Source of the DNA: Shouchella clausii | Lineage (GTDB): Bacteria > Bacillota > Bacilli > Bacillales > Bacillaceae_D | Reading direction: 5' to 3' | Length of the DNA stretch: 64,000 nt | NCBI RefSeq assembly: GCF_001598215.1 | Contig: NZ_BCXJ01000005.1 | Location: forward strand, 248,001-312,000 | Shown: one piece after another, positions 30,744 through 45,716 of the stretch | How the letters are laid out: each line of letters starts with the position of its first letter | Position numbering within the stretch: position 1 is the stretch's first letter | Notes under the pieces: generated by a model | Seen by the model: the letters and a program-made list of their open reading frames with translations, nothing else | What the model was told of the DNA's origin: nothing | The model's database searches: none | Position numbers and translations under genes: made by a program

Positions 30744-30767
30744 TAAGCATTTAGGAGGGATTAGCAA

Positions 30768-31859
30768 ATGAAAACCTTTACGGTTAACGGAAAAACCAAT
30801 CGTCCATTCTTGACATGGTTGACAGAGGGGATGATCCATACATTTCAAAAGGCTGGATATGAGTATAAGGAATCGCCGATAGACCAGATCAATCTAGTTT
30901 TTAATGTGATTGACCCTGATCGGCCTCGACATTTTCGTCGCCATTCTCAATCGACTTTCGTTGTGAGCATCCTCGAAACAGAAGAAAAACCAGAAAATGT
31001 TTTTAAAACGGCCTATCCTTATTTGATTCGGTCTCTAGCGAATCATTTGATGTATATTTACCACCAAGATGACGATATACACCTCTATTTTCTCACGCCC
31101 GAACAAGGCTTTTATAGCATGACTCATCGTACGGATGAAGCAGAAGAAGTATTATTTGAACGTATATTTGACAGGTTGAAACCTTTGGCTTCCTCACAGT
31201 TAGTGATTGATAATCATTTCAATGAAGACCTCATTGACGATTTATTAGATGGAAATGATAGAACCAGGAAAATGTATTTATCGGGAAAAAGACTGGACAA
31301 AATGAATTTATTGCCAGCGCCATTTCCAATTGACAATTACTTATCTCCTCGAGATATGCGCCATTTAAAGAAATTGTATGGCATTGGTGGATTAAGTTAC
31401 GGGAACCTTAGTAGTCGTGAAAATAACGACCATTTCTGGATGAGTGCTAGCGGAATTGATAAATCCAATATGAAAGAGATTGGAAGGGACATTCTCTATA
31501 TCACTGGATACGATTCTACAAAGAACGCCATGAAAATTAGCATACCGCCAAATATTACCCCGAAAAGAGCGTCCGTGGATGCGATTGAACATTGGATGAT
31601 CTATCGGGAACATCCAGATGTTGGGGCCATTGTACATATACATGCCTGGATGGACGGAATAGAAGCTACGCAAATAAACTATCCGTGCGGAACAATCCAG
31701 CTTGCCGAAACGGTTGCAGAGTTGGTACGTCAAGCCGATGACCCAAGCAGAGCAGTGATTGGCCTTAAAAATCATGGTCTGACCATAACCGGGCATGATT
31801 TGGATGAAATCTTTGAACGTATTGAGGATAAAGTCATTCCTCAAGTGCCCATGACTTGA
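30768..31859 (+). CDS. Class II aldolase/adducin-like protein with a novel N-terminal half
   Basis: The C-terminal part (about residues 190-363) is a class II aldolase/epimerase domain. The zinc ligands are His290 and His292 in 'VHIHAWMD' and His336 in 'LKNHGLTITG', and 'YGNLSSREN' lies at 211-219. The first 180 residues, rich in aromatic and charged residues, match no family I recognise. The gene follows GGAGGG and is 24 bases after the alcohol dehydrogenase. Class II aldolases cleave or condense sugar phosphates at C3-C4 or epimerise them. A fused unknown domain may bring in a lipid or larger substrate; this is inference. Confidence 0.75.
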   Translation: MKTFTVNGKTNRPFLTWLTEGMIHTFQKAGYEYKESPIDQINLVFNVIDPDRPRHFRRHSQSTFVVSILETEEKPENVFKTAYPYLIRSLANHLMYIYHQDDDIHLYFLTPEQGFYSMTHRTDEAEEVLFERIFDRLKPLASSQLVIDNHFNEDLIDDLLDGNDRTRKMYLSGKRLDKMNLLPAPFPIDNYLSPRDMRHLKKLYGIGGLSYGNLSSRENNDHFWMSASGIDKSNMKEIGRDILYITGYDSTKNAMKISIPPNITPKRASVDAIEHWMIYREHPDVGAIVHIHAWMDGIEATQINYPCGTIQLAETVAELVRQADDPSRAVIGLKNHGLTITGHDLDEIFERIEDKVIPQVPMT

Positions 31860-32331
31860 AATGAAGCCTCCTTTGTTCAAATGAACGTTTCAGGTTTTCG
31901 CTTCCAGTTAGGGTAATAGTCGGCACATGCATGGAAGTTTAACAAACGGCGCATCAATGTTGAGGGAATGACAAAGAAAGAAGAAGAACAGGAAAGAATT
32001 TACCTTTGTTGCACCGACAAATGAATGGATCTATACCGTTGGGTACATTAAGACATTGGGGCAGGTAAGGACATGGAGACTATGCTAAAGCAAATAGTAA
32101 GTCAAATAGTAGAAATTCTTATTGCATGTTTTGAGTTCGAATATGAAGAGATCCTTGAACGGACTTCCACTAGCGAAAAAGAAAACGAATAAATCTAGGC
32201 GGCCGTATATCTGTTTATATAACTAGCGAATGGAAGTCTGCCTTTTGCTTGCATGCAAAGTTCGTATGTACCCAGAAAGTTCTACAGCATATTCTGTTAT
32301 AGAGTGTTGCATGTGAAGGAGAGAACATAGG
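31860..32331. other. Gene-poor stretch before the glycosyltransferase gene
   Basis: In these 472 bases the best short frame is 32073-32192 on the plus strand. It has 39 codons, with GGTAAGG before its ATG and an acidic, hydrophobic-helix product. It is too weakly supported to be called a gene. Other frames are interrupted. The promoter of the downstream gene should lie near 32230-32310. Confidence 0.35.
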
Positions 32332-33447
32332 ATGAGAAATCAGCCATTGATTTTTTCTGCATCAATTGGATATGGCCACCATCAGGCGGCTAAAGCCCTA
32401 CAACATGAATTTAATCATCATGGCTTTCATCCTGAAATTGTTGATACGTTTCACGCGATCAGCCCAAGGCTTCATAAGTTGATGCTGAGCAGTTATATTC
32501 ATTTGCTAAAACGATACCCAGTAGTATGGAGAAAAATTTATTTATATGCAGAAGAACATCCGTTGTATTTATGGTTAGATCGCTTTGGCTCCCTTTTTGT
32601 AGAACAACTCTATTCAATCATTGATAAACAGAAGTGTTCATTCATGATTTCAACGCATCCATTTGTGACAGCGTTTTTAACAAGAGTCAAACAGGTAAAA
32701 CAATTAGAGGTCCCCTTGTATACGGTTATAACGGACTTTGTCTTGCATCCTGCCTATGTAAGGCAAGAAATAAATGGCTATTTTACAGCATCCCCTAAAA
32801 TTGAAGAATTTGCCAACTTGTCCAACATTCCTTCCCACCTTTTTTATTCAACAGGCATCCCCATTTCAAATCATGACGATTTACAAATAACGAAGTTACA
32901 AGCTCGTCATGATTTGGGACTTGATCTGGATAAGAAGATCCTGTTAATTTCAGGAGGCGGCATTGGTTTATCAAATTATACTCGCATAATACGGGAATTA
33001 GAACAATTACAACAATCGATTCAGATTGTATGTATGGTAGGGCACAATCGTAAAGCGAAGCAAAGCATTTTACGGCAGAACAGTAAACACTCCATAAAAA
33101 TCGTTGAATTTACAGATCAATTTTTACTGTATCTAAAGGCAAGTGACGGGATACTTTCCAAAGCAGGCGGATTAACTATGGCAGAAGCTCTTGCTTGTGA
33201 AACACCGATTATGATTTACAATCCTATTCCAGGGCACGAGGAGCAAAATGCCGAATATTTATCCAATTCAGGGGCTGCCGTAAAAGTAGAACGTTGTATT
33301 CAATTACCTCAAGTAATAGAGAGTGTGTTGTATCAAACATCTCATTATAAAGCGCTCCAGCATCATGCACGTAAATTAAAAAAACCAAACGCCGCCAACC
33401 ATATTGTTGAGAAGATTATACGATTTGAACAACAAAAAAATGGCTAA
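32332..33447 (+). CDS. Glycolipid-type glycosyltransferase (MGDG synthase/UgtP-like, GT28)
   Basis: The 371-residue protein has the N-terminal MGDG synthase domain with 'SASIGYGHHQAAKAL', matching the glycine-histidine loop of UgtP-type enzymes. The C-terminal GT28 nucleotide-sugar site has 'SGGGIGL', 'SKAGGLTMAEAL' and 'PGHEEQNAEY'. Bacillus UgtP adds glucose from UDP-glucose to diacylglycerol. This is probably a paralogue acting on a lipid acceptor at the inner membrane face. The start follows GGAGAG. Its presence beside two lipid kinases and an acyltransferase fits a specialised glycolipid pathway. Confidence 0.85.
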   Translation: MRNQPLIFSASIGYGHHQAAKALQHEFNHHGFHPEIVDTFHAISPRLHKLMLSSYIHLLKRYPVVWRKIYLYAEEHPLYLWLDRFGSLFVEQLYSIIDKQKCSFMISTHPFVTAFLTRVKQVKQLEVPLYTVITDFVLHPAYVRQEINGYFTASPKIEEFANLSNIPSHLFYSTGIPISNHDDLQITKLQARHDLGLDLDKKILLISGGGIGLSNYTRIIRELEQLQQSIQIVCMVGHNRKAKQSILRQNSKHSIKIVEFTDQFLLYLKASDGILSKAGGLTMAEALACETPIMIYNPIPGHEEQNAEYLSNSGAAVKVERCIQLPQVIESVLYQTSHYKALQHHARKLKKPNAANHIVEKIIRFEQQKNG

Positions 33448-33463
33448 CGACAAGAGGTTTTGC

Positions 33464-34018
33464 TCATTCCATATTCCCCTCTCTGTCAAGATCCATATAG
33501 ACTTTGCTAGGGGTAGCCCCTTCTTGATATAAATATTTTCCGCGATAGCCTTCTGTAGCTTGGTCGACGTTTGCGATCACTAACTGGCAAACACGGATGC
33601 CGACCTGCAATTGAACAGGAACACGGTTTGCATTAAACAATTCCAATGTAATTTGGCCAGAGAAGCCTGGATCAATCCAGCCAGCATTTTGAATAAACAC
33701 ACCTAGTCTTCCGATCGAGCTTCTCCCTTCAACAAAAGCTGTTAAATCATCAGGCAAACGAATTTGTTCTAACGTTGTTCCTAGCATAAACGTTTTAGGT
33801 GGAATCGAAATCACTCCGCCTTCTGGCACCTGTGTTTCATGATAGTTCGCCGGCTTGTCAACTGATAATAAAGGGGTAGACATGTCATCCACTACTAAAA
33901 AATGATCCCCCAAGCGTAGATCAATCGATGCTGGTTGTATGCTTAAGCCTGTAAAAGGGGTAATCACCATGCGTTCTTCCTGTATGAATTGCTTGATCGT
34001 TTGTCCTGATAAAATCAC
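33464..34018 (-). CDS. dcd: dCTP deaminase (possibly bifunctional DCD/DUT)
   Basis: The 184-residue protein has the dCTP deaminase/dUTPase fold motifs 'IQPASIDLRLGD', 'EGRSSIGRLG' and 'AGWIDPGFSGQITLELFN', the last holding the catalytic Glu. The enzyme deaminates dCTP toward dUTP, or directly to dUMP in bifunctional forms, and uses no zinc. The GTG at 34018 is preferred because family members begin 'MILSG'; the ATG at 34030 is possible. It lies 64 bases after the Zur-boxed FeoB-like gene in the same direction without a clear terminator between. It may therefore be induced by zinc shortage and replace the zinc-dependent dCMP deaminase route. Confidence 0.88.
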   Translation of the reverse strand: MILSGQTIKQFIQEERMVITPFTGLSIQPASIDLRLGDHFLVVDDMSTPLLSVDKPANYHETQVPEGGVISIPPKTFMLGTTLEQIRLPDDLTAFVEGRSSIGRLGVFIQNAGWIDPGFSGQITLELFNANRVPVQLQVGIRVCQLVIANVDQATEGYRGKYLYQEGATPSKVYMDLDREGNME

Positions 34019-34082
34019 TATTCCCACCACCCATTATAATTGCTCTGAATGTGGAGCGATTCGCTCACTATCATGCTTCCTT

Positions 34083-35765
34083 TTAGTTAATGAAAGATAG
34101 CCCCACCGCAACAACAGCTGCACTAATAACACTTGTCAGCATTTGTTTCCATCCAATCGACAAGGCCGTTTTCCAACTTGTCTCTTTGCTGATTGTCCAT
34201 AACGTCACAAGACAAGCAGATAAAGTGGAAGCCAAATAGACAAGAATAAACACCTGAGCGATTGACATCTCCATTAATAAGCTCCCTTGCCCCTCATTCA
34301 ACACAAGCAAGCCATCCTTTCTAATAAAAGAAAAGATTAAGCCAGGCGCTGCTTCTACAGGTAAGGAAAATAGAGTTAACAAAGGCAGAGCGAGCCAGCT
34401 AAAAATTGATAACATCCCTATTGTTTCAAATACAGATGCAACAAGACAGATCGCCAAGAAAATCGGCATAGCTTGGAGCAAAAACTGTTTCATGACACTA
34501 GATACCTTCCACCAAAACCCTTTCCAGTTCATCCCTTGCAAATAAGGAAGCGGCGCAATAGGTATTAGCTCATTTGTGGTGCTTTTGTGCCAAATTCTCG
34601 TGTGAATGGCTCCTACAATAAGTAATAAAAGCAAATACGGAATAAATAAAAACGGAACATGTGCGGCATTAAAAATCGACAACGTCGCCCCTATTTGATA
34701 ACTGCATGCTGAAGCAAATGAAATCATCGACATGCATGACGCCCGCGTACAGCTACTACAACTTCTGCTTTGCATCACGGCTACCACATTGCAACCAAAT
34801 CCCGTTATGACAGGAAGCAAATCTCTTCCAGTTAAACCGATTTTACGCAGCCACGGATCTAACGCATTGGTTAAATGCTCCTGTATCCCAATCTCTTCTG
34901 TAATCGTAGTCGTGATACTGATCATGATGACAACAGGAAAAGCCCAGAGAAATGAGTACCAGCCTAAAGTGATTAATCCATAATTACCTGTTAAGACATT
35001 TGCTAAAAAGGGCGGTACCTGCTCAAGTAACAAAGAGATGAGTGGTACAAGCAAATATTGTTCTGTCAATGGCTCGAGCCAACTGACAAACATATAGGCA
35101 GTAAATACTGGCAAAGCAAATATGGCCAAAATAAATAGGCATGCGAGCATTGGCCCTATGATCGGCAAACGGAATATCGGCAATAAACGGTTAACAGGAT
35201 TAGGCGAAGCAGGCAAGAAATAAATAATACTTGTCGTCACTCCCCAGACACGGGCATTCTCGATACATGCCATCACTTGCTCTTGTTCCCCTTGCTCCAT
35301 CTTTCGGGCATTCATCCAGACAACGGGAACTTGTAACAGTTCTTGCACTCTTTTTTGTTCGGCTTTTGAGGGCAAGTACTTGTCTCGGTGCGTTGCGGCA
35401 ATCGCTATTCTTTTCCCTTTCAATTCCAATTTTTGCTGTAGCTGTATTAACTCCTCCTTCAAGTTCGTTGCCCTTACAACTAAGAGAATCGTTTCCTCTC
35501 CTTCTAAATGATCTAACGTAAGCTGTGTGCTGTGGCTGTCCATATCAAATTGAAGTCCTGGCAAATCTGTTAATCGAACATCGCTGTTGATTGTACAGGT
35601 TGCGCTTAAAGCAGCTACGGTTGAGCCTTTTATGTTGCTTGCTAATGCTCGTTTCTCACCCGTCAACTGGCGAAATAAACCTGATTTGCCAACAGATTCA
35701 CAACCCACTAACAATACATCTGTCGGTTGAGCGGGGGAAGGCCGCACACTTTCTAACATTGACAC
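34083..35765 (-). CDS. FeoB-like GTPase/metal transporter
   Basis: The 560-residue protein has a small N-terminal G domain with the P loop 'GCESVGKSGLF' (21-31) and 'DLPG' (67-70). It is followed by two Gate-type membrane domains with about nine segments and the conserved 'PVITGFGCNVVAVMQSR' segment. It is shorter than classic ferrous iron FeoB (about 650-770 residues) and has a cysteine-rich stretch 'SCSSCTRASCMSM' in the membrane part. The GTG (35765) or ATG (35759) start follows AGGAGG. A Zur box lies directly upstream, and the gene follows the COG0523 GTPase gene, so zinc rather than iron is the likely substrate. That is inference. Confidence 0.8.
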   Translation of the reverse strand: MSMLESVRPSPAQPTDVLLVGCESVGKSGLFRQLTGEKRALASNIKGSTVAALSATCTINSDVRLTDLPGLQFDMDSHSTQLTLDHLEGEETILLVVRATNLKEELIQLQQKLELKGKRIAIAATHRDKYLPSKAEQKRVQELLQVPVVWMNARKMEQGEQEQVMACIENARVWGVTTSIIYFLPASPNPVNRLLPIFRLPIIGPMLACLFILAIFALPVFTAYMFVSWLEPLTEQYLLVPLISLLLEQVPPFLANVLTGNYGLITLGWYSFLWAFPVVIMISITTTITEEIGIQEHLTNALDPWLRKIGLTGRDLLPVITGFGCNVVAVMQSRSCSSCTRASCMSMISFASACSYQIGATLSIFNAAHVPFLFIPYLLLLLIVGAIHTRIWHKSTTNELIPIAPLPYLQGMNWKGFWWKVSSVMKQFLLQAMPIFLAICLVASVFETIGMLSIFSWLALPLLTLFSLPVEAAPGLIFSFIRKDGLLVLNEGQGSLLMEMSIAQVFILVYLASTLSACLVTLWTISKETSWKTALSIGWKQMLTSVISAAVVAVGLSFIN

Positions 35766-35866
35766 TCTCCCCTCCTATTAAAAGATCGTTCAGATTGAGC
35801 TATAGGGCCCTGTCGTCGTACCTATCGAAAACGATTGGAATCACGGAATGCTCTGCATGGTGACCA

Positions 35867-35889
35867 TAAACCATAATTATTACGATTTA
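35867..35889 (-). promoter_or_regulatory. Zur box upstream of the FeoB-like gene
   Basis: This 23-base element has half sites TAAACCATAAT and ATTACGATTTA around a central T. The Bacillus Zur consensus has TAAATCGTAAT and ATTACGATTTA, so the left half differs at two positions and the right half is perfect. It lies 102 bases before the FeoB-like start and 14 bases after the GTPase stop. Confidence 0.75.
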
Positions 35890-35903
35890 AAGCACAAAAA
35901 AAA

Positions 35904-36869
35904 TTAAGCACGACAATAGTGAAAGCCTTTCGCTAGTTCCTGATCGTCGAGATGCTTGCCAATAAAGACGATCTCACTTTGCCTTTTTTCCTCTTTCGCC
36001 CACGGCGCTCCCTCTGTGCCTGCAAACAGCATATGTACGCCTTGAAAAACAACTCTTTTCTCAAGTTGCTTTATATAAAGGACACCTTTATAACGATACA
36101 GCGTTTCTCCTTTAAATTGGACTAAATAGGCGAACCAGTTGTTCACTTTTTCTAAATCAAGGGGATGGTCTTCCTGAAACACAAAAGAAGTCACTTGTTC
36201 ATTATGATGGTGGTGATGCGTTTCGGTTAATAAAGTCGGATCTATTTTTAATACATTTTTTAAATCAAAGGATTTTTTCCCAACGACATCTCGAATATCT
36301 ACATGAGCATATGTCGTATAAATCTGCTTCGCATGTGGGTTCATATGGGTCAGCTGTTGTTCTAGTTTATTTTTTTCCTCATCCGTAATCAAATCAATCT
36401 TATTTATCAAAAGAACATCAGCAAAAGCGATTTGTTGCCCAGGTTCTTCTTCCGCTAAATGTTGCCAAATATGCTTGGCGTCAACCATCGTAATCACACT
36501 ATCGATTTCAAATGAATGGGCCGTTTCCTTATCCATTAAAAACGTTTGAATGACAGGTGCCGGATTAGCCATACCCGTTGTCTCAATGACAATACGGTCA
36601 AGCGGTTCTTCTCGTTCATTCAAATTCCTTAATAGATTGATTAAATCAGCCCGTACATTGCAACAAATACAACCACTATTCACTTCTATTATTTCTTCCT
36701 TAGTTGGCACGACCAAGTGGCTATCAATCGATGTATCGCCAAATTCATTAATGATGACAACGACATTTTGCTCAGTGATCCCTTTTAGTAAGTGATTGAG
36801 AAATGTGGTTTTTCCTGCACCTAAAAAGCCAGTTAAAATCGTAACGGGAACCGTTTGTTCTTTTGGCAA
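35904..36869 (-). CDS. COG0523 (CobW/YciC/ZagA-type) GTP-dependent zinc metallochaperone
   Basis: With the TTG start at 36869 (after GGAGGA) the 321-residue protein begins 'PKEQTVPVTILTGFLGAGKTT'. Its Walker A is at 14-21 and the zinc-binding CxCC motif at Cys67, Cys69 and Cys70. A 'HHHHH' stretch and a C-terminal CobW_C domain follow. The ORF can be extended to 36932, but the extra residues merely translate the ribosome binding site. In B. subtilis the Zur-regulated member ZagA delivers zinc to FolE during starvation. A Zur box overlaps the leader, which supports the same role. Its client proteins here are unknown. Confidence 0.88.
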   Translation of the reverse strand: MPKEQTVPVTILTGFLGAGKTTFLNHLLKGITEQNVVVIINEFGDTSIDSHLVVPTKEEIIEVNSGCICCNVRADLINLLRNLNEREEPLDRIVIETTGMANPAPVIQTFLMDKETAHSFEIDSVITMVDAKHIWQHLAEEEPGQQIAFADVLLINKIDLITDEEKNKLEQQLTHMNPHAKQIYTTYAHVDIRDVVGKKSFDLKNVLKIDPTLLTETHHHHHNEQVTSFVFQEDHPLDLEKVNNWFAYLVQFKGETLYRYKGVLYIKQLEKRVVFQGVHMLFAGTEGAPWAKEEKRQSEIVFIGKHLDDQELAKGFHYCRA

Positions 36870-36965
36870 TCCTCTTTTTCCTCCATCGTCTAAATTTCCG
36901 ACTTTGATCGTAACATGTACAGCGGCAACCATAAGACTATTCCATGCCTGCTAAAACAGAAACAA

Positions 36966-37022
36966 CAAATCGTAACAATTACGATTTAAAAGGATTATAT
37001 GATATCCACGTAGGATTGTAAA
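36966..37022 (-). promoter_or_regulatory. Promoter and Zur box of the GTPase gene
   Basis: On the minus strand TTTACA (37017-37022), a 17-base spacer and TATAAT (36994-36999) form a strong promoter. Immediately downstream at 36966-36988 is a Zur box with half sites CAAATCGTAAC and ATTACGATTTA. Each half differs from the consensus by two bases or fewer. Zur with zinc bound here would cover the transcription start. Confidence 0.82.
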
Positions 37023-37293
37023 TAGCAAAGATTGTCCCCTCCCCTCATACGTCCGTTTCTTCACGTAAAAGAAAATCAATGGTGAGTTTGACAAACATGA
37101 ACGCTTCCCTCTTAACAGCGAAACTGGCTGATTATGGGACTTAAAACAACTATGATACCCAACGTTACTCACCACAAATCCACCTTGACAGAGGCAAAGT
37201 GAGAGATTCAATCAGCCAACAGCTCCGATCCCCCCCTTTATGGATACAGATGACCACAAGCCGATTATTATTCGATCGAATGAAATAAACTTC

Positions 37294-37350
37294 TTGACGG
37301 AATAGCGGAATTAGTGTTAGCTTGTAACAAAACGTAATCATTTCGATTTA
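37294..37350 (+). promoter_or_regulatory. Promoter and Zur box of zinT-znuA
   Basis: TTGACG (37294-37299) with a 17- or 18-base spacer precedes a weak -10 (TAGCTT, 37318-37323). The Zur box follows at 37328-37350, with half sites CAAAACGTAAT and ATTTCGATTTA around a central C, three mismatches in all. The box starts a few bases after the -10, like the one on the divergent promoter. Confidence 0.75.
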
Positions 37351-37380
37351 CATATCGCCTTAAAGGAGAGGAAGAAAAAA

Positions 37381-38382
37381 ATGAAAAGACTGCTTATTAG
37401 CTTATCAAGTTTATTAGTACTAAGTACTTATTTAACAGCATGTCAAGGAACAAAAGACGAGGAGCAAGTGAACGGAATAGAAGAAGGAGAATCAGAAGTA
37501 CATACAGATGAGGGTCATGCCCACAGTGAGACGAACGATTTTGAGGCTCCAGAAAGTATAAAAATCGAAGGGGTTGCTGATCACTATCATACGGGCGATG
37601 CGATTGAGCTAACCGCAGTACTGGATGAAGAAACAGAATATGATCATTGGCACTGGTATAGCAGAGAAAGTGCAGATGAGGAATGGGAAGGCGTTTCAGG
37701 ACAGGAAACGGACACATTTACAGGAGAAGCAACAATCGATGGCTTAGAAATAAAAGCTGTTTTATTCGATCATGACCATGAGCCTCATGTTCAATCTGCA
37801 CCAGTCAAAGTGGTGATTGATGATCATCATGGACATGATGAAGAAAGCCGCCAAATCTATCAAGGCTACTTTGAAGATAGTCAGGTTGAAGACCGTGAAT
37901 TGTCTGATTGGGAAGGAGATTGGCAATCGGTTTATCCTTATCTTTTATCTGGAGATCTAGATGAAGTGTTTGAACATAAGGCAGAAGATGGAGATATGAC
38001 AGAAGAAGAGTACAAACAGTATTACACGGTAGGATATGAAACAGATGTTGATCGTATCATCATTGAAGACAATACCGTCACTTTCTTTGAAAATGACAAC
38101 GAGTATTCAGGAGAGTACGAATCAGATGGTTACGAGATTCTTACCTATGAAGCAGGTAATAGAGGCGTACGATTTATCTTTAAATTAGTTGATGGATCAG
38201 ATGAAATGCCTCCATACATTCAGTTTAGTGATCACAATATCTTTCCAGTAGATTCCCATCATTTTCACTTATATTGGGGAGATGACCGTGAGGCCCTATT
38301 GGAGGAAGTTACAAATTGGCCAACGTACTATCCTTCTGAATTAGACAAAGATGGGATCGTACGTGATATGTTGGCACATTAA
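37381..38382 (+). CDS. zinT: ZinT/YodA-family zinc-binding lipoprotein with an extra histidine-rich domain
   Basis: The 333-residue protein has a lipobox ending at Cys21, then an acidic and His-containing linker. A module of about 90 residues (60-148) contains 'ADHYHTGD' and 'YDHWHWYSRESADEEW'. The C-terminal ZinT domain (about 155-333) has the zinc ligands His285, His294 and His296 in 'FSDHNIF' and 'DSHHFHLYWG'. ZinT binds zinc outside the membrane and passes it to ZnuA. The extra module is absent from standard ZinT and is repeated twice in the ZnuA encoded next. The gene follows a Zur box and AAAGGAGAGG. Confidence 0.9.
   Translation: MKRLLISLSSLLVLSTYLTACQGTKDEEQVNGIEEGESEVHTDEGHAHSETNDFEAPESIKIEGVADHYHTGDAIELTAVLDEETEYDHWHWYSRESADEEWEGVSGQETDTFTGEATIDGLEIKAVLFDHDHEPHVQSAPVKVVIDDHHGHDEESRQIYQGYFEDSQVEDRELSDWEGDWQSVYPYLLSGDLDEVFEHKAEDGDMTEEEYKQYYTVGYETDVDRIIIEDNTVTFFENDNEYSGEYESDGYEILTYEAGNRGVRFIFKLVDGSDEMPPYIQFSDHNIFPVDSHHFHLYWGDDREALLEEVTNWPTYYPSELDKDGIVRDMLAH
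37558..37824 (+). repeat. Copy 1 of the HYHTGD/DHWHW module (in zinT)
   Basis: The coding stretch for residues 60-148 of ZinT is similar, also at the DNA level, to two stretches in znuA. Shared marks are 'VADHYHTG', 'DYDHWHWY', 'ESADEEW', 'VRAVLFD' and 'VIDDH'. The predicted fold is a small beta sandwich carrying surface histidines. Confidence 0.8.
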
Positions 38383-38399
38383 TCTCTGTCGCAGAGATT
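38381..38399 (+). terminator. Hairpin between zinT and znuA (partial terminator or RNA processing site)
   Basis: AATCTCTG, a TCG loop and CAGAGATT form an 8-base perfect stem right at the zinT stop, followed only by CATTTAAG. It may limit readthrough into znuA or protect the zinT message. Confidence 0.4.
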
Positions 38400-38453
38400 C
38401 ATTTAAGAGAATATAGCTGAGATCTGATCATTCGTACGGTGAGGAGAATATAG

Positions 38454-40046
38454 ATGAAAGCCAATCGGTTCGTTACCATTTTGTTTAGTTCCATTATGTG
38501 TACCACTCTTATGGGCTGTAACCAAAATGAAGACGAAAACACTGCAAGTGAGAAGTTATCCGTTGTAACATCGTTTTACCCAATGTATGAATTTGCTCAA
38601 CAAGTCGCAGGGGATCGTGCAGACGTATCACTAATGGTTTCTGCAGGAGAAGATGCCCATCATTATGAACCAAGTGCCCAAGATGTAGCGGCTGTTAATG
38701 AAGCAGAAGTATTTGTCTATAGTAGTGAAGAAATGGAACATTGGGTTGAAAGTCTATTTAACACAGTAGAGAACAATGATCTGGTCATCGCTCGTACAGC
38801 AGATGGTGTTGATTTAGTGGATACTAGTGGATCAGGTCATTCTCATGGCCACGATCAACATGGAAACGAGGAAAAACAAGAAGCCGCTGGAAAGATAAAC
38901 ATTCAAGGTGTTGCCGACCATTATCATACTGGCAACATGATTGAATTAACGGCGGAATTAGATGAAGAAGTAGACTATGATCATTGGCACTGGTATACAA
39001 GAGAAAGTGCGGATGAGGAATGGGTAACTGTTCCCAATCAAGGAGGACCTGAATTCAACTATGAGGCATCAGGAGATAGCTTTGAGGTCCGGGCAGTCCT
39101 TTTTGATGATAGTCACAATGAATACGCAGAGTCAGAACCAGTAGAAATTGTCATTGATGATCACGGCCACGGCCACGACCACGGCCAGGAAGAGGAACAT
39201 GAGCATGAGGAGGAACATGGTCAACATCAGGAGCATGGAAGTGATAGCGCAATTGAAATTGTTGGATTGGCGGATCACTATCATACAGGAGATGTCGTTA
39301 CACTCGTTGCTCAGCTTGAAGAAGAGGTAGACTACGATCATTGGCACTGGTACACACGTATGAGTGAAGATGATGAATGGGAAGCTGTATCTGGACAAGG
39401 AACCGATCACTTTGAGTATGAAACAACTGGAGAAAGCTTCGAAGTACGGGCAGTCCTTTTTGATGACGATCATAATACGTATGCAGAATCAGAGCCAGTA
39501 TCGGTCATCATTGATGATCATGAATCACACGATCCACATATTTGGCTAGACCCCGTATTGGCACAAGAGCAAGTTAACGTCATTCGCGATGCCCTGATTG
39601 AGGCAGATCCAGACGGACAAGCGATTTATGAGGAAAATGCAGAAGCCTTTAATAAAGAGCTTCAAGCATTACATGAGGACTATCAAGCTGCGCTTGAAGA
39701 TGCAGAAAGCCGCGTGTTTGTCGTCCAACACCAAGCATTTGGATACCTTGCGCAACGTTATCAGTTAGAACAAGTAGCGATTGGCGGTTTATCTACAGAA
39801 GTTGAACCGAGTCCATCGCGTATTGCTGAAATTGGAAACCTCGTGGAAGAACATGATGTGCCAGTTATTTATTATCAACAAGGAGCCAATTCAGCCATTG
39901 CCGAAACGGTCGCTACTGAAACAGGGACAGAGACAGCCGTCTTGTATGACTTAGAAGTACTATCTGAAGAGCTTCAAGCAGAGGATCTAGGATACGTCGA
40001 TGCCATGCGGCAAAACTTGGAAGCTTTACAGTTAAGCATCCAATAA
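38454..40046 (+). CDS. znuA: Zinc ABC transporter solute-binding lipoprotein ZnuA with two inserted histidine-rich modules
   Basis: The 530-residue protein is far longer than usual ZnuA/AdcA cores (about 300). The lipobox gives Cys22. The N-lobe has His69 in 'AHHYEPS', and the C-lobe has His362 in 'HDPHIWLDP', His426 in 'VVQHQAFGYLA' and 'GLSTEVEPSP'. The space normally filled by a flexible His-rich loop (about 125-358) instead holds two modules of about 90 residues (148-236 and 267-356). Histidine- and acid-rich linkers, such as 'HDHGQEEEHEHEEEHGQHQE', separate them. They could capture zinc or recognise zinc complexes. It follows zinT after 71 bases without its own Zur box. Confidence 0.92.
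   Translation: MKANRFVTILFSSIMCTTLMGCNQNEDENTASEKLSVVTSFYPMYEFAQQVAGDRADVSLMVSAGEDAHHYEPSAQDVAAVNEAEVFVYSSEEMEHWVESLFNTVENNDLVIARTADGVDLVDTSGSGHSHGHDQHGNEEKQEAAGKINIQGVADHYHTGNMIELTAELDEEVDYDHWHWYTRESADEEWVTVPNQGGPEFNYEASGDSFEVRAVLFDDSHNEYAESEPVEIVIDDHGHGHDHGQEEEHEHEEEHGQHQEHGSDSAIEIVGLADHYHTGDVVTLVAQLEEEVDYDHWHWYTRMSEDDEWEAVSGQGTDHFEYETTGESFEVRAVLFDDDHNTYAESEPVSVIIDDHESHDPHIWLDPVLAQEQVNVIRDALIEADPDGQAIYEENAEAFNKELQALHEDYQAALEDAESRVFVVQHQAFGYLAQRYQLEQVAIGGLSTEVEPSPSRIAEIGNLVEEHDVPVIYYQQGANSAIAETVATETGTETAVLYDLEVLSEELQAEDLGYVDAMRQNLEALQLSIQ
38895..39161 (+). repeat. Copy 2 of the HYHTGD/DHWHW module (first in znuA)
   Basis: Residues 148-236 of ZnuA: 'GVADHYHTGNMIELTAELDE', 'YDHWHWYTRESADEEW' and 'VRAVLFDD' match copies 1 and 3. 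Copies 2 and 3 share long identical DNA runs near 'cgggcagtcctttttgatga', which points to recent duplication. Confidence 0.85.
39252..39521 (+). repeat. Copy 3 of the HYHTGD/DHWHW module (second in znuA)
   Basis: Residues 267-356 of ZnuA: 'GLADHYHTGDVVTLVAQLEE', 'YDHWHWYTRMSEDDEW' and 'VRAVLFDDDHNTYAESEPV'. It directly precedes the second lobe of the binding protein at 'HDPHIW'. Confidence 0.85.
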
Positions 40047-40087
40047 CGGGCATGATTAAACGATTGTAGATAGGAAACAACGAAACG

Positions 40088-40133
40088 TATAGATCGTATT
40101 CTTAAACGATAAGTAGAAAGAATACGATCTATA
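40088..40133. repeat. Perfect 16-base inverted repeat between znuA and znuC
   Basis: Arms 40088-40103 and 40118-40133 are exact complements around a 14-base loop. No T run follows, so it is not a normal terminator. A TATAAT (40130-40135) overlaps the right arm and might be a -10 box for znuCB. It could set the ratio of binding protein to permease messages. Confidence 0.7.
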
Positions 40134-40152
40134 ATAGAAAGGTCGTTTCATT

Positions 40153-40860
40153 ATGCATTATATTGAAGTAAAAAATCTCGCCTTTCAGTATGAAAACGAA
40201 CCAGTGTTGGAAAATATTTCATTTGAAGTAGATGCAGAGGATTTTGTGATGCTAACCGGAGAAAATGGTGCCGCAAAGACGACTTTGTTGCGCAATATTT
40301 TAGGTTTGTTGAAACCGTCAAAAGGTAGCGTCCGAATTTCACCAAAAAATCGTTTTGGCGAGAAGCTCATGATTGGATATGTTTCACAGCAGGTTGCCTC
40401 CTTTAACGCTGGATTTCCGAGTACTGTGCTTGAACTTGTGCAATCTGGCCGCTATCAAAGAGGCAAATGGTTTAAACGATTAGATAAAGATGACAAAGAG
40501 CATGTGCGGCGCTCACTAGAATCCGTGGGAATGTGGGACATGCGCCATAAAAAGATAGGAGAATTATCTGGCGGGCAAAAACAGCGGATTTCCATTGCCC
40601 GTGTATTTGCAACAGACCCTGATTTGTTTGTGCTAGATGAACCTACAACTGGAATGGACGTGAATTCTAGAGAAGAATTCTATAAATTGTTAAAACACAA
40701 TTGCCGTGAACATGGGAAAGCGATTTTAATGGTTACCCATGATCATGAAGAAATCCGTCATTATGCTGACAAACATATTGAGCTAGTCAGGAAGGAGGAC
40801 TCTCCATGGAGATGTTTTTCCATGGATTCATGCAAAGAGCTTTCCAAGCCTCACTCCTAA
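40153..40860 (+). CDS. znuC: Zinc ABC transporter ATP-binding protein ZnuC (AdcC)
   Basis: The 235-residue ATPase has Walker A 'GENGAAKTT', signature '[13 protein letters not shown]', Walker B '[12 protein letters not shown]' and the switch His in 'VTHDHEE'. The Ala in place of the last Walker A glycine is usual in the AdcC/ZnuC group of Firmicutes. The segment '[20 protein letters not shown]' is also characteristic. It powers zinc uptake through ZnuB. The 3' end overlaps the znuB start by 55 bases. Confidence 0.93.
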
Positions 40861-41636
40861 TCTCATTCATTGCACCATTGTTAGGCTTGTTTTTAATATT
40901 ACGTAGACAGTCTCTAATGGCGGATACTCTATCACATGTATCCTTAGCGGGTGTAGCACTAGGTTTGCTAATCGGCGTCAATCCAACGTGGACCAATCTT
41001 TTAGTCGTTGCGGTAATTGCCATCATGCTTGAATATTTACGTGTGGTGTATCGCACGTATTCGGAAATTTCGATTGCGATTTTAATGTCAGTCGGCATGG
41101 CTCTAGCCCTATTCCTGATGGGGTTAAATGATGGTGGAGCTACTTTAAGCATGAACCAATTTTTATTTGGCTCCATTGTCACCATTAGTAAGCAGCAAGT
41201 ATGGATGTTGTTCATCCTAACGATTATGATTAGTCTCCTCTATTTCGTTTTCCGAAAACCTATGTATATTTTGACATTTGATGAGGAAATTGCCTTCACC
41301 GCTGGTTTGCCTATCAAAACGATGTCTATTTTGTTTAACGTGTTAACAGGGGTAACGATTGCAATCATTATGCCGATAGTCGGCGCTTTACTCGTTTCAG
41401 CCATTATCGTCTTACCTGCTGCGATTTCAATGCGGTTAAGCAAAAGCTTTAATGGTGTTATTTTCATTGGAATCGTGATTGCCTTAATTGGCATGTTGAG
41501 TGGTTTAGTCGCTTCGTATGAATTAGGTACACCACCAGGAGCTTCTATCATATTAATCTTCATGATCCTTTTTGCTGCGACTGCACTGATTAAACATATC
41601 TTGCGTCACACTAAATTAGAGAAACGCTTTAAATAG
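40806..41636 (+). CDS. znuB: Zinc ABC transporter permease ZnuB (AdcB)
   Basis: The 276-residue protein has about eight transmembrane segments and the ABC-3 family motifs '[17 protein letters not shown]' and '[18 protein letters not shown]'. It forms the membrane channel for zinc delivered by ZnuA. A strong AGGAAGGAGG before the ATG lies within the 3' end of znuC. A terminator follows 10 bases after the stop, ending the zinT-znuACB unit. Confidence 0.93.
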
Positions 41637-41646
41637 AAGTGATGAC

Positions 41647-41683
41647 AAAAATCGCAACGTGTGTAAACATGTTGCGATTTTTT
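41647..41683 (+). terminator. Intrinsic terminator after znuB
   Basis: A 14-pair stem (41649-41662 with 41667-41680, one G-T pair) with a four-base loop is followed by a T run and preceded by A, so it could act in both directions. Confidence 0.85.
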
Positions 41684-41846
41684 CATGACTGTTTTGCCAC
41701 GACAGTGCCATCTTTGCTTCAGGTCTTGTCTTTTTGGTTCAAACCTAGATTAATACACGAAATGAAGGCAACCTAGTAATACATTCAGCCAACATTCTTA
41801 ATCCTCCCCTATATGAAGTTCATTTTTCGGGAAACGTTTCCCTCTC

Positions 41847-43109
41847 TTAACATTTATTTTTTTGCGACCAAATCATGAAAATAACAAGTAACAGGGCTAA
41901 AACACCTCCTACTAACGATAAAGCTTCGTAACTAGAACCAGCAACCACCATGCCTGCTAATGCACTGCCAGAAGCTCCGGATAAAGCTATAAAAACATCG
42001 ACGGTTCCTTGTGTCTTAGCACGTGTTGATGGTTCAGTTGAATCAATAATTAGAGCTGTGCCACTAATCAGGCCAAAATTCCACCCTATCCCAAGAAAGG
42101 AAAGAGCAATAATGAGAAGAATGATGGAATCGCCTGGTGCGATTGACGCTAAAACACCAGAAAGTAGTAATGTAACGCCAGAAGCAATCGCCATATTAAC
42201 TCGACCAACTTTATCAACAAGGATTCCTGTAACAAGAGAAGGGAGATACATAGAACCAATATGAAAACCAATAACAAGCCCAATAGTCTTTAAACTGTGA
42301 CCGTGATCTTCCATATGAATAGGCGTCATGATCATAATTGCAACCATTACGATTTGGGTAAGTATCATGATGATAGCGGCAGTAGCAACTCCCTTTTTAT
42401 TTAATTGAGTCTCTTTCAGGAGCTTATTAGGTTTAATAAGTCGCCTATTTTCATTTATCTTTAACGCTATAATAAATGGATCAGGACGTAAAAATACAAA
42501 TAAAAACAGACCTGCTACTACAAATGCTACTGCCGATAAAATAAAAGGTCCTGCTAATTCTGGAACTCCGATAGAAAGAGCAAAATTTCCCATCACATTT
42601 ACTAAGTTTGGGCCTGCAACTGCTCCAAATGTTGTAGAAACCATCGCTATACTTACAGCAGTTCCTCGCTGCTTATTAGTTGCTAGGTCAGTTCCAGCAT
42701 AACGAGCTTGTAAATTGGTTGCGGTGCCTGCACCATAAATGAATAAGGACGCAAATAATAAAAATATATTATGGATAAGAGCTGCAATGACAACACCTGC
42801 TGCTCCAAGCCCTCCAGCTATAAATCCTATCGTAAGTCCCGTGCGCCTTCCAAAATGATTAGAAAGTCTCCCTACCGTTAATGCTGCTCCAGCTGAGCCT
42901 AACGTAAATAAAGCTGCTGGAATACCAGCATATGCATTGGTTCCAAGCATTTCTTCTGCAAGCAATGCACCTACTGTCAATCCAGCGGCTAATCCTGCCC
43001 CTCCAAATACTTGTGAAATAACTACTATAATTAAGATTCGTTTATATAATCGTTTTTGTTTCTTCGGATTGTCTATATAACTTTCTATTACCTTCCTTTT
43101 TTTATCCAA
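41847..43109 (-). CDS. Major facilitator superfamily transporter
   Basis: The 420-residue protein has 12 predicted transmembrane segments and the MFS loop motif 'GRLSNHFGRRTGLTIG' between segments 2 and 3, repeated as 'GILVDKVGRVNMAIA' after segment 8. This is the pattern of drug or metabolite exporters (DHA1-like). The start is TTG at 43109 behind AAGGAG. It stands alone behind a TetR-type palindrome. Its substrate is not evident; export of a metal-binding compound is a possibility given the Fur- and Zur-linked neighbours. Confidence 0.82.
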   Translation of the reverse strand: MDKKRKVIESYIDNPKKQKRLYKRILIIVVISQVFGGAGLAAGLTVGALLAEEMLGTNAYAGIPAALFTLGSAGAALTVGRLSNHFGRRTGLTIGFIAGGLGAAGVVIAALIHNIFLLFASLFIYGAGTATNLQARYAGTDLATNKQRGTAVSIAMVSTTFGAVAGPNLVNVMGNFALSIGVPELAGPFILSAVAFVVAGLFLFVFLRPDPFIIALKINENRRLIKPNKLLKETQLNKKGVATAAIIMILTQIVMVAIMIMTPIHMEDHGHSLKTIGLVIGFHIGSMYLPSLVTGILVDKVGRVNMAIASGVTLLLSGVLASIAPGDSIILLIIALSFLGIGWNFGLISGTALIIDSTEPSTRAKTQGTVDVFIALSGASGSALAGMVVAGSSYEALSLVGGVLALLLVIFMIWSQKNKC

Positions 43110-43144
43110 AATATCAATCTCCTTTTATTCAATCTAATTCCACT

Positions 43145-43198
43145 ATTATATTAAATTAATTCTATTTATAATGAACATTCAAAATAAATAATGTTCAT
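43145..43198 (-). promoter_or_regulatory. Promoter -10 and TetR-type operator of the MFS gene
   Basis: ATGAACATT (43171-43179) and its exact complement AATGTTCAT (43190-43198), 10 bases apart, form a palindrome typical of TetR/QacR-family operators. TATAAT on the minus strand (43145-43150) would be the -10 box, and the operator covers the -35 region. No TetR-family gene lies in the window. Confidence 0.6.
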
Positions 43199-43307
43199 TT
43201 TGTTTATTCATCCATGTTGATCTCCATCATTTCTTTTTTGGAAAAAATTGTTATATCTAGTTTAAAAAAGCTTATAGTAACCTTCCACACTGTAGACAGC
43301 GCTCGCA

Positions 43308-43377
43308 TACTCCGAGGTTTGTCAAGCGTTTTCTCTCAGTCTGGTCGAGGTTATCGACTTGGCGACAACCTCAGAGT
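43308..43377 (-). terminator. Long imperfect hairpin after the saccharopine-dehydrogenase-like gene
   Basis: CTCCGAGGTTTGTCAAG and CTTGGCGACAACCTCAGAG pair imperfectly around a loop of about 32 bases, directly after the stop codon at 43378. No clear T run follows. Similar GTCGACAGG-type hairpins recur at 56314 and 59840. Confidence 0.35.
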
Positions 43378-44424
43378 TTATTTCTTTATAAGCTTTATAT
43401 CTCCCTTATCAAGGCAAAATAGATCATCTATATGATAGATGCCATAAGGTAACGGTGAATGAATTAGTTGTTTAACAACTAGTGATGTTATAGAAGCTGT
43501 CGTCATTGCTTCACTGTTTGCATACCATATCTCGTGTATTTCATTTATCAGGTTGTTTTCGCTATTCGTAGCTTCTACTTTTATTGCACAAATATCTGAA
43601 CTTGACGGAACACGACAGAAGCTTTGAATCATTTTAATCACCACACGCTTTGCCCAGGAATACTTAAGGAGTGCCGTAAATCTCAACCTATGGACTATCG
43701 CTAGTATCCGATTAACCCACTCTACATCAAATGTAAGATAGGTTTGCACCTCGCTGCGGGGTAGCTTTCGTTGAAGAATATGTTGATCCGAAAAATTAAA
43801 CAAATAGCTAGTTCTTTTCCCTAATCGGTTAAAATACGTCATTCTTTTTCCTGAAAAATTTCTAACCGTTTGTGTAACACCGTTCTTTTTAACGTTGTAA
43901 GATTGATTTATCTGTTCAAGCAACCATTGAATTGCCCCGACTCCATGTTCTTCTCCTAAACCCAATAAAATAGATATGTGTAATTCCTCAATCGATTCCA
44001 TACGATCTATAAGATGTTTAGCAAGTAAATTAGAAAGACCTGGAGCAAAGCCTACGCTCATTATAACGGTGGACTGTTGGGCCAAAGGGTTGAGCTGCTC
44101 GATTTGCTTATGAAAAGCAAAATTAGCTGTTATATCAATATAATGGATATGATGCTCTAAGCAGTACTGAACCAAAGCTGCATTCTGCTGATCCATGCAC
44201 ATGATCACTAAATCTGCAAGCAAGATTGCTTCATAACTTTTTGGTTTTCGTATATCTATTTCCACAGGATGGGCACTGGAACCAAGTTGCCGACAGTAAT
44301 ATTCAGCTTTTTCTAACCGCCTTCCGGCAATCAAGATTCGTAAGTCTGTTGATTGTGTTAACTGCTTGGCAATATTTCCACCTACTTCACCATAACCACC
44401 GATAATCATAACTGAATTGATCAT
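43378..44424 (-). CDS. Saccharopine dehydrogenase-like NAD(P)-binding oxidoreductase
   Basis: The 348-residue protein begins with a Rossmann motif ('MIIGGYGEVGGNIAKQL') and has the saccharopine dehydrogenase features 'VEIDIRKPKSYEAIL', 'YIDITANFAFHKQI' and 'VGFAPGLSNLLAKHL'. Such enzymes make or cleave opine-type imines, but many members have other substrates. The ATG at 44424 follows AAAGGAG. Its promoter region holds a perfect Fur box shared with the divergent regulator, so iron limitation should induce it. An opine-type metallophore step is an inference; no nicotianamine-synthase-like partner is present. Confidence 0.78.
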   Translation of the reverse strand: MINSVMIIGGYGEVGGNIAKQLTQSTDLRILIAGRRLEKAEYYCRQLGSSAHPVEIDIRKPKSYEAILLADLVIMCMDQQNAALVQYCLEHHIHYIDITANFAFHKQIEQLNPLAQQSTVIMSVGFAPGLSNLLAKHLIDRMESIEELHISILLGLGEEHGVGAIQWLLEQINQSYNVKKNGVTQTVRNFSGKRMTYFNRLGKRTSYLFNFSDQHILQRKLPRSEVQTYLTFDVEWVNRILAIVHRLRFTALLKYSWAKRVVIKMIQSFCRVPSSSDICAIKVEATNSENNLINEIHEIWYANSEAMTTASITSLVVKQLIHSPLPYGIYHIDDLFCLDKGDIKLIKK

Positions 44425-44592
44425 GCTTTTCTCTCCTTTTTTGCTATATAGATTTCAATATTGTATTGCCTCTTTTGTTCGATAATTGCAGAAACAAAAA
44501 GGAGCCCTCTATAACCGCATTCAATACATTCAGTACACCTTTCTCCATCAACATTCCCTTCATTTTTAACGTTCTCCCTGCTATAATTTATA

Positions 44593-44621
44593 TTGATAAT
44601 TATTATCAATTATAAAATACT
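44593..44621. promoter_or_regulatory. Fur box in a divergent promoter region
   Basis: TGATAATTATTATCA (44594-44608) is a perfect 7-1-7 Fur box of the Bacillus type. On the plus strand TTGATA (44593-44598) and AATACT (44616-44621) could be a promoter for the LuxR gene with a 17-base spacer. On the minus strand TTGATA within the same palindrome is placed for the oxidoreductase gene. Both -35 boxes would be covered by Fur. Confidence 0.8.
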
Positions 44622-44660
44622 GGCTTATAGACACTATCCCATGAATAAGGGGGGACTAAG

Positions 44661-45716
44661 TTGCAGTGCTCTATTGATTACTGGAAAGAAAAGTCAAACA
44701 ACATTTGGAATAGATATACGGATTCTTATCTATATAGAAAAAGGATGATTCTTCGTTTAAAACAGCAAGTTTCCTTCGATGCGTATTGTTGTGCAGTAGT
44801 AAATCCGATGACACTAACTACGGTTGGAGCAATAACAGAATGCTCTCTCGAACCTATTCATCAAGATTTATTAACTTCTGAGTATCTTGAAGATGATGTA
44901 CATTTATACCGAGAGTTAGTGGAAAAGTCTGTTAAAACAGCCAGATTAAGTGATACCTTTGGCAAACAGGAAAGTAGACGTTTTACTGACATATTAAAGC
45001 CACACCAATTCTCAGATGAAATGCGAGTAGCTTTAATGGATAAGGGGAAATGCTACGGGTTTTTAACATTATTTAAAAAAGAAGAGAGTACACATTTCAC
45101 TGATAAAGAAGTATTACTATTAGAAGGGTTGTCCCCAATAATGGGAAAAGCATTAAGGAATTATTTTTTTATGGAATCAGAACAAAGTTCCCAATCCCTT
45201 CATACTGATCCTGGCGTAATTATTGTAGATCGACATTTGTCATTACAGTCAATGAATGAAGCAGGTAAAAGATATATGACCTTGTTGCAAGAATTCGAAC
45301 GTTCTGAGGATCCAGGTAGTCTTCCTAAGCCTATTCAAGCTATATGCTTTAAGCTTTTATCCCAGAAAGATAGAAACGTAACACTCTTTATTCCTGTAGC
45401 AGATAAAATCCAATTCGTAGCATCCGCTTCCTTTTTGCAAACGGATAGTTCAAAGAAAAATGTTGCAATTGCTATTACAATAAACAAAGCTTCTGCCAAA
45501 GAAATGCTGGAACATTTAATGGAAACATATGCTTTAACAGCCCGAGAGAAACAAGTGGTGAAAGCTTGCCTGCCAGGACATACCACAAAAGAAATCGCAA
45601 ACAAACTTAACATTTCCTATTATACGGTTCAAGATTATTTTAAAAATATTTTTTATAAGGTAGGCGTGACTACTAGAAATGAACTAGTTTGGAAACTGTT
45701 TGCGAAATATCAATAA
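44661..45716 (+). CDS. LuxR-family transcriptional regulator
   Basis: The 351-residue protein ends in a LuxR/NarL helix-turn-helix of about 60 residues ('LTAREKQVVKACLPGHTTKE' to 'VTTRNELVWKLF'). The preceding part looks like a GAF or PAS type sensor but without a clear family match. It starts at TTG 44661 behind GGGGGG. It lacks an autoinducer or receiver domain. Because it shares the Fur-controlled divergent region, it probably regulates the adjacent oxidoreductase gene and perhaps the MFS gene. Confidence 0.82.
   Translation: MQCSIDYWKEKSNNIWNRYTDSYLYRKRMILRLKQQVSFDAYCCAVVNPMTLTTVGAITECSLEPIHQDLLTSEYLEDDVHLYRELVEKSVKTARLSDTFGKQESRRFTDILKPHQFSDEMRVALMDKGKCYGFLTLFKKEESTHFTDKEVLLLEGLSPIMGKALRNYFFMESEQSSQSLHTDPGVIIVDRHLSLQSMNEAGKRYMTLLQEFERSEDPGSLPKPIQAICFKLLSQKDRNVTLFIPVADKIQFVASASFLQTDSSKKNVAIAITINKASAKEMLEHLMETYALTAREKQVVKACLPGHTTKEIANKLNISYYTVQDYFKNIFYKVGVTTRNELVWKLFAKYQ

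Follow-up and report, generated by a model that had tools for sequence, protein, structure and literature searches.

It is an unsettled question how zinc is collected on the outer side of the membrane by Gram-positive bacteria and handed over to the receptor of an ATP-binding cassette (ABC) transporter; the contribution of ZinT to uptake was described as still unclear, and in Gram-negative bacteria direct contact of ZinT with other proteins as unobserved in vivo (PMC7858048). The question is raised by a zinc locus in a 64,000-nucleotide stretch of Shouchella clausii DNA (assembly GCF_001598215.1, contig NZ_BCXJ01000005.1, positions 248,001 to 312,000; hereafter the window), where zinT and znuA share a histidine-bearing module of about 95 residues, present in one copy in ZinT and in two copies in ZnuA. 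With moderate confidence, we read this module as an immunoglobulin (Ig)-like β-sandwich that acts as a bead for zinc capture, borne by lipoproteins outside the membrane, and it probably helps to catch zinc and to pass it to the uptake pump.

A module shared by ZinT and ZnuA

The zinT open reading frame (ORF; 37381..38382, + strand, from the ORF list) encodes a probable lipoprotein of 333 amino acids, with a lipobox-like L-T-A-C21 read from the sequence. Its module (residues 55-152, 37543..37836, +, bounded by profile and blastp) is followed by a ZinT (YodA) zinc-recruitment domain (residues 156-333, 37846..38379, +), which belongs to PF09223 with 278.8 bits against a gathering score of 27 and presents the ligand pattern H-x8-H-x-H (HNIFPVDSHHFH), presumably the equivalent of the AdcA/ZinT zinc ligands. 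The znuA ORF (38454..40046, +, from the same list) encodes a probable lipoprotein zinc receptor of 530 amino acids, a member of the cluster A-I zinc receptors (PF01297, 242.6 bits, threshold 29). Here, the N-lobe (residues 31-125, 38544..38828, +) is followed by a His-rich linker (126-143, 38829..38882, +), module 1 (144-241, with the profile ending at 241 or 242; 38883..39176, +), a His/Glu-rich linker (242-262, 39177..39239, +), module 2 (263-360, 39240..39533, +) and the C-lobe (356-530, 39519..40043, +), the linkers being assigned from sequence and model confidence.

The motifs ADHYHTG, DHWHWY and VLFD start at residues 66, 88 and 127 of ZinT, at 154, 176 and 215 in the first ZnuA module, and at 273, 295 and 334 in the second. 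Comparison of ZinT with ZnuA by blastp produced two alignments (58.9% identity over 95 amino acids, E 1.6e-34; 59.8% over 92, E 9.3e-32), which persisted under low-complexity masking, and therefore the likeness is neither due to chance nor a mere reflection of His/Glu composition; the two ZnuA modules are 62% identical to each other. Three related modules, one in ZinT and two in ZnuA, had already been proposed in an original prediction made from the letters alone, with which these motifs and E-values agree. That prediction also had the modules replacing the His-rich loop of ZnuA; instead, they are inserted within this loop, where His-rich linkers still flank and separate them, and the confidence of the ZnuA model, given by the predicted local distance difference test (pLDDT), falls below 50 in the linker residues 123-143 and 238-263.

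A fourth copy was found in the same genome, at the same insertion place of a second ZnuA (466-codon frame, contig C2). This second gene (locus L004, 970-2343) carries a single module within the loop and a Zur-box-like site matching 12 of 14 positions, and its product apparently keeps a Glu at the ligand position discussed below (VFEPN, judged by eye). The nearest named locus was that of Shouchella tritolerans, whose module 1 is 100% identical to that of the window.

For wider comparisons, row set A2 comprised 26 rows, namely the three window modules and 23 hand-picked from the 33 left after thinning, and row set A3 comprised 129, namely the three window modules and 126 of the 127 modules to which 153 had been thinned at 90%. 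Two A3 rows from locus L033 duplicate modules already included (its module 1 is 100% identical to that of the window), and the ZnuA in the L033 row of set A4 matches that of the window at 100% identity. In the module tree, all 30 rows of the ZnuA module-1 slot fell in a clade of 31 (support 88) and all 30 of the module-2 slot in a clade of 34 (support 98), both across genera, in counts that leave out loci L064, L086, L087 and L093. In these four, the two copies are adjacent in the FastTree leaf order, and because they stand side by side, repeated and separate duplications are suggested there. The ZinT modules do not form one clade, the best clade holding 38 of 54 with support 0. A recent duplication within the window was considered and rejected, in view of the many silent DNA differences and of slot clades that remain separate across genera.

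A predicted immunoglobulin-like fold outside the two family libraries searched

The AlphaFold model of ZnuA module 2 alone is a seven-strand sandwich similar to Ig and fibronectin type III (Fn3) domains, with a pLDDT of 92; its seven strands and its matches to Ig/Fn3 structures place the predicted fold among the Ig-like β-sandwiches. This confident model favours the earlier proposal that the module is a structured domain. The core tryptophan of strand C, W37 in module numbering, was present in 129 of 129 modules and aligned, with a weak E-value, to the tryptophan of antibody light chains, where the module triplet H36-W37-Y38 also meets a light-chain H-W-Y (a weak match, E about 1). The Cys pair that forms the intersheet disulfide of V-, C- and I-set Ig domains is absent, with A24 at the light-chain Cys position, and the window modules contain no Cys at all.

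The module is missing from both family libraries searched, Pfam and NCBIfam, in line with the earlier statement that no described family was known for it. The three window modules gave nothing credible in either library (best E 0.036), and the 129 modules, searched singly, gave nothing credible among the best 25 of 46 Pfam families (best E 7.6e-4) or among all 15 NCBIfam families examined with E up to 1. The weak Pfam matches among those best 25 included SCAB-Ig (7.6e-4), Ig_7 (0.0034) and PKD_6 (0.021), in addition to unrelated families. Moreover, sequence searches of the PDB with module profiles reached best E-values of 1.1 and 0.58 only, the matches being mostly Ig domains and one uncharacterized protein (3lyd).

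Conserved histidines and putative metal sites

In module numbering, H13, H15 and H94 were kept in 128, 129 and 129 of the 129 modules of A3, a set to which a genome scan with a pattern containing HYH contributed. Among 82 distinct modules recovered by profile searches, each was kept in 81, the single exception being a generic Ig repeat with none of the three, and among the 29 profile-found modules that do not match the scan pattern, the three residues were kept in 28. A second group, H34, H36 and H78, varies jointly: all three were kept in 110 of 153 modules, all were absent in 16 (module 2 of L063 and that of L065 are natural variants without them), and 27 were mixed (12 without H34 only, 10 without H78 only, three without H36 only and two without both H36 and H78). 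Out of the 820 pairs formed by 41 variable columns, 36-78 ranked first, 34-36 third and 34-78 sixth, and when the columns were simulated as changing independently along the module tree, with the best tree taken as given, the observed value was reached in 0 of 1000 replicates in each of six runs.

According to the DSSP string of the model, H34 and H36 lie on strand C by W37 and H78 in the F-G turn, and H13/H15 and H94 adjoin the isolated bridge residues Y14 and I91, respectively. On the basis of conservation, co-variation and strand positions, we infer two metal sites on the Ig scaffold. The first would be composed of H13, H15 and H94, with the acidic D92/D93, where the A-B turn would meet the end of strand G; the second, which would be dispensable, of H34, H36 and H78, where the start of strand C would meet the F-G hairpin. 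Engineered three-His zinc sites in antibody light chains offer a comparison: as in the module, strand C contributes histidines from its start and the F-G loop does so as well, whereas those sites were designed and lie in V domains with a disulfide.

Distribution and gene settings of the relatives

Relatives were sought by profile searches of whole genomes in family, order, class and phylum samples, which overlap and each contain the window's own genome. Module-bearing genomes amounted to 21 of 41 in the family and 18 of 299 in the order sample. Strong matches were found in three of 398 genomes of the class sample, the own genome included, and matches of any strength in five of 398 of the phylum sample, where the own genome was the sole strong one and the other four (E 4e-4 to 0.009) lay in frames of 548-1898 codons. 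Additionally, the scan of 84,980 species genomes with the pattern containing HYH yielded 94 relatives, of which 76 loci were kept.

In total, 212 module-bearing ORFs were collected from 138 loci, some of which overlap and may count one gene repeatedly: 101 ZinT, 60 two-module ZnuA, 23 one-module ZnuA, 13 ZnuA cut at the locus end, two ZnuA with a C-terminal module, and 13 others. The relatives thus occur mostly in zinc-uptake proteins, namely ZinT, ZnuA (in the loop or at the C-terminus), small lipoproteins and actinobacterial wall proteins. The two ZnuAs with a C-terminal module (L124, 1486-2865, − strand; L126, 1486-2838, −) retain a plain His-rich loop, and one module-ZnuA, of genome G003, is split over two frames (L176, 454-1816, −). 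The 13 others are four small ORFs that resemble lipoproteins (L091, L092 and, each directly preceding a module-ZnuA, L073 and L081) and nine actinobacterial ORFs. Four of these nine (L072, L077, L088, L089) matched the NCBIfam models choice_anch_M and TIGR03773, four (L082, L090, L094, L103) resemble them by eye, and L096 matched the HAF repeat model. A ZnuA-like C-lobe follows or adjoins the module gene in L072, L082, L088, L089, L090 and L103, and a ZnuC-like gene stands beside it in L094. In the Streptomyces locus L191, the next gene encodes a full TIGR03772 receptor (772.5 bits), with choice_anch_M located between its two lobes.

Two actinobacterial proteins deserve mention on their own account. 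The Nocardioides HAF-repeat protein with a module (L096, 344-2167) adjoins an ArsP_1 permease, no zinc-system gene being matched in the 5.8 kb examined, and a surface protein (L189, 312-2894) carries a His-bearing module and then a generic Ig-like repeat without histidines, an arrangement that is a possible picture of how the module originated.

The organisms carrying relatives include Niallia, Robertmurraya, Neobacillus, Bacillus methanolicus, Lysinibacillus, Paenibacillus and Streptomyces, and they are not all alkaliphiles. Because the relatives span Niallia to Streptomyces, with Bacillus methanolicus, Lysinibacillus and Paenibacillus among them, the idea that the module serves zinc uptake at alkaline pH is left unsupported.

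Zur-box-like sites

Sites resembling the Zur box were scored as 15-mers with at least 12 of 14 fixed positions, within 300 bp upstream of complete ORFs from L033-L108 with at least 150 bp of upstream sequence; distances to the sites are rough, since each frame was assumed to start at its first ATG. Such a site was found upstream of 72 of 116 module genes, that is, 39/54 zinT, 19/34 two-module znuA, 10/15 one-module znuA and 4/13 others, the four being the Bacillota lipoproteins. As a control, a site preceded 8 of 229 other ORFs of these loci and 9 of 79 other zinc-system ORFs; some of the 229 may have an intergenic region in common with a module gene. Some znuA genes without a site lie directly behind zinT and may form one operon with it.

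In the window, one site lies upstream of zinT (ACGTAATCATTTCGA, 37332..37346, +, 12/14 positions) and another between zagA and zinT, nearer zagA (TCGTAACAATTACGA, 36970..36984, +, 13/14); the short gap before znuA reached 8/14 at best. The count in the window is weak when taken by itself, with eight matches at up to three mismatches against 3.64 expected, a number equalled in 4 of 100 shuffles. The ZinT of B. subtilis is presumably encoded by yrpE, and a control search finds a ZinT there. In B. subtilis, yrpE is repressed by Zur (PMC4324032).

Proposed function and competing explanations

The original prediction proposed zinc capture or docking as the role of the module; its mostly zinc-uptake setting and its conserved, metal-site-like histidines argue for capture, and zinc binding itself is put forward here on sequence grounds. 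In the mechanism that we propose, ZinT and ZnuA would hold the beads on flexible His/Glu-rich linkers, beads and tethers would make the capture of scarce zinc close to the membrane more likely, and the metal would travel down the linkers into the ZnuA cleft (H69, H362, H426), from which ZnuBC would receive it. The ZnuA tether runs straight into ligand H362 (in a DPH motif) and could thus deliver zinc to the cleft, a transfer modelled on a suggestion made for the AdcA loop (PMC7858048).

The top Foldseek matches of ZnuA were AdcA (7jj8, 7jj9) and YcdH (2o1e), which are its nearest solved relatives, C22 is invariant across 32 rows, and H69, H362 and H426, kept in 32/32, align with His63, His140 and His204, which are among the AdcA zinc ligands (PMC7858048). 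The AdcA-type site of three His and one Glu is incomplete here, with Q475 (39876-39878) at the position of AdcA Glu279, where two-module ZnuAs have Gln in 28 of 32 rows and Glu in four. In Streptococcus pneumoniae, the zinc thermal shift of AdcAII was +24.9 °C before and +15.0 °C after the E280Q change, and growth was comparable with that of the wild type (PMC8416893). The modules might conceivably compensate for a weaker ZnuA site.

Several observations weigh against zinc capture. The HYH of the scan pattern inflates the conservation of this motif in A3, and the triad H34/H36/H78 is not all-or-none, given the 27 mixed modules. In a stricter independent-pairs test confined to supported branches (treekit), which is underpowered, no pair was significant: 36/78 gave five pairs, 2.4 same and 0 opposite (median p 0.5), 34/36 gave seven pairs, 2.7 same and 0.1 opposite (p 0.25), and 34/78 gave seven pairs, 1.7 same and 0.2 opposite (p 1). 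That the histidines lie close together is deduced from the strand order of a model, and conserved histidines can serve docking or folding instead. Besides, 15 of 54 module-zinT genes have no Zur-box-like site and neither has any of the nine actinobacterial module genes, where the Zur box may differ, and L077, L091, L092 and L096 gave no zinc-system gene match beside the module gene in the stretch examined. Finally, growth of Streptococcus in low zinc was not significantly impaired when AdcA lost the His-rich loop alone or the ZinT domain alone, whereas loss of both impaired it (PMC7858048).

The main rival is homotypic docking, in which the ZinT module would pair with a ZnuA module and bring ZinT to the receptor, perhaps through a zinc bridge at the exposed H34/H36/H78 face, with the fused AdcA as its covalent counterpart; we consider it rather unlikely. 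In its favour, all 18 module-ZinT genomes among the 41 of the family also have a module-ZnuA (G003, with its split gene, counted), as do 19 of 20 among 33 genomes picked by locus, whose type was assigned partly by ORF length and of which at least two organisms overlap the family set; furthermore, G023, the only genome of the family in which an AdcA-type fusion of ZnuA and ZinT was observed, is without the module. However, module-ZnuA occurs without any ZinT in G019 and G020 and with a module-free ZinT in G036; docking of ZinT on ZnuA, also part of the original prediction, is no more than a possibility. Likewise, G1093 and G1095-G1098 have ORFs of module-ZnuA length and no module ORF of ZinT length (module-free ZinT was not searched there), G1072 has a module-ZinT and no other module, and none of the actinobacterial modules was observed to have a ZinT as neighbour.

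A further step down in probability, the module could be a spacer or surface-binding Ig domain that sets the protein off from the membrane or binds wall polymers, with histidines of minor importance for zinc. Bacterial surface proteins commonly use Ig-like domains as spacers, the L189 module is directly followed by its histidine-free repeat, and three (L143, L144, L145) of the four weak phylum-sample matches are Ig-like repeats by eye; nevertheless, the near-invariance of H13, H15 and H94 and the joint variation of H34/H36/H78 are not expected of a spacer, and the module is nearly restricted to zinc-uptake settings. Buffering of another metal or of several metals, merely co-regulated with zinc uptake, is very improbable: three-His sites also accept Cu, Co and Ni, and the receptor next to the Streptomyces module is TIGR03772, whose name states no metal, but the Bacillota copies mostly stand with ZinT, znuABC or zagA under Zur-box-like sites.

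Going beyond zinc capture by a bead, the modules could represent a natural metallo-immunoglobulin family of Bacillota and Actinomycetota with two His zinc sites, an exchangeable bead swapped among ZinT, ZnuA and wall proteins, which would pair like with like through zinc between ZinT and ZnuA and would occupy the slot held elsewhere by the HxD/HxH domain described below; we regard this extended picture as doubtful.

Relation to known systems

The closest precedents, in the parts of the literature used, are the HxD/HxH domain of Corynebacterium diphtheriae and cyanobacterial ZepA. Two elements are already in print: an extracellular domain with histidines that a zinc receptor has in common with its helper proteins (PMC12445094) and an Ig-like zinc exoprotein in Anabaena (PMC10957091). 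The HxD/HxH domain was reported in ZnuE, ZnuF, ZnuG, CmrA and ZnuA, and its histidines were needed for growth, their role in zinc binding in vitro being not conclusive (PMC12445094). Like the module, it is an extracellular His-bearing domain repeated in wall proteins, and the C. diphtheriae ZnuA receptor also has the motif, shorter and in reversed order; unlike the module, it has another motif spacing and, in the text used, involves no ZinT. By its motif, this domain may be equated with NCBIfam choice_anch_M/TIGR03769, which in Streptomyces accompanies the module on one polypeptide and is also found within the adjacent TIGR03772 receptor. A relation of the module to choice_anch_M/TIGR03769 was rejected, with an hhalign probability of 0.5% (against three sequences) and no match of these models among the 129 modules at E up to 1 in all 15 NCBIfam families.

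ZepA is a zinc exoprotein that has an Ig-like domain A and, within this domain or elsewhere, a zinc motif predicted as H-x2-9-H-[FY]-H (PMC10957091). It resembles the module by description, as a zinc-handling protein with an Ig-like domain, whereas it is a PEP-CTERM protein with a second domain and the window proteins are lipoproteins; the window modules have HYH with no upstream His of that motif. In S. pneumoniae AdcA, as here, ZnuA and ZinT units cooperate, with a His-rich loop at the interface, although there ZinT is fused, the 17-residue loop is mostly without electron density and, in the part described, no Ig-like module is present (PMC7858048). The streptococcal Pht proteins are, similarly, surface zinc proteins thought to feed the zinc receptor (PMC3842936), with the motif HxxHxH (as cited in PMC12445094) in place of HYH. 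The link once drawn from HYH to these histidine-triad proteins is not supported, given the different motif, the Ig-like fold and the lack of a Pfam match: with E-values up to 1 admitted, the histidine-triad family was matched by none of the three window modules, nor, among the best 25 of 46 families, by the 129 modules. A Pht relationship was rejected, no His standing three residues before HYH.

Among the papers listed by the literature searches, none on an Ig-like HYH module or on its sharing between ZinT and ZnuA came up. The module would add a domain to several proteins that the family models employed treat as plain ZinT, ZnuA or choice-of-anchor M proteins, and a small shared domain with named histidines and natural variants that have lost one of the two proposed sites makes capture, hand-over and docking directly testable.

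Neighbouring genes in the window

In the window, zinT and znuA are followed by znuC (ABC ATPase, 40153..40860, +) and znuB (permease, 40806..41636, +), and a zagA/yciC-like COG0523 GTPase gene (35904..36932, −) is divergent from these four. The assignments are at family level: none of the best 25 of 187 matches of znuC reached its NCBIfam cut-off, znuB matched the AztB and ZnuB models below their cut-offs, and the GTPase matched the ZigA, CobW and GTPase models, also below theirs. No Rfam match was found in positions 30000-45000. Adjoining zagA, an FeoB-like GTPase/permease (34083-35765, −) scored 103.5 bits, far below the feoB cut-off of 315.65; a Zur-box-like site with two mismatches lies by this gene (35871-35885), whose product may be a Zur-regulated transporter of a metal other than iron. 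The zinc cluster is also neighboured by a dCTP deaminase gene (PF22769, 33464-34030, −), possibly, as an idea only, encoding a zinc-independent substitute for a zinc enzyme.

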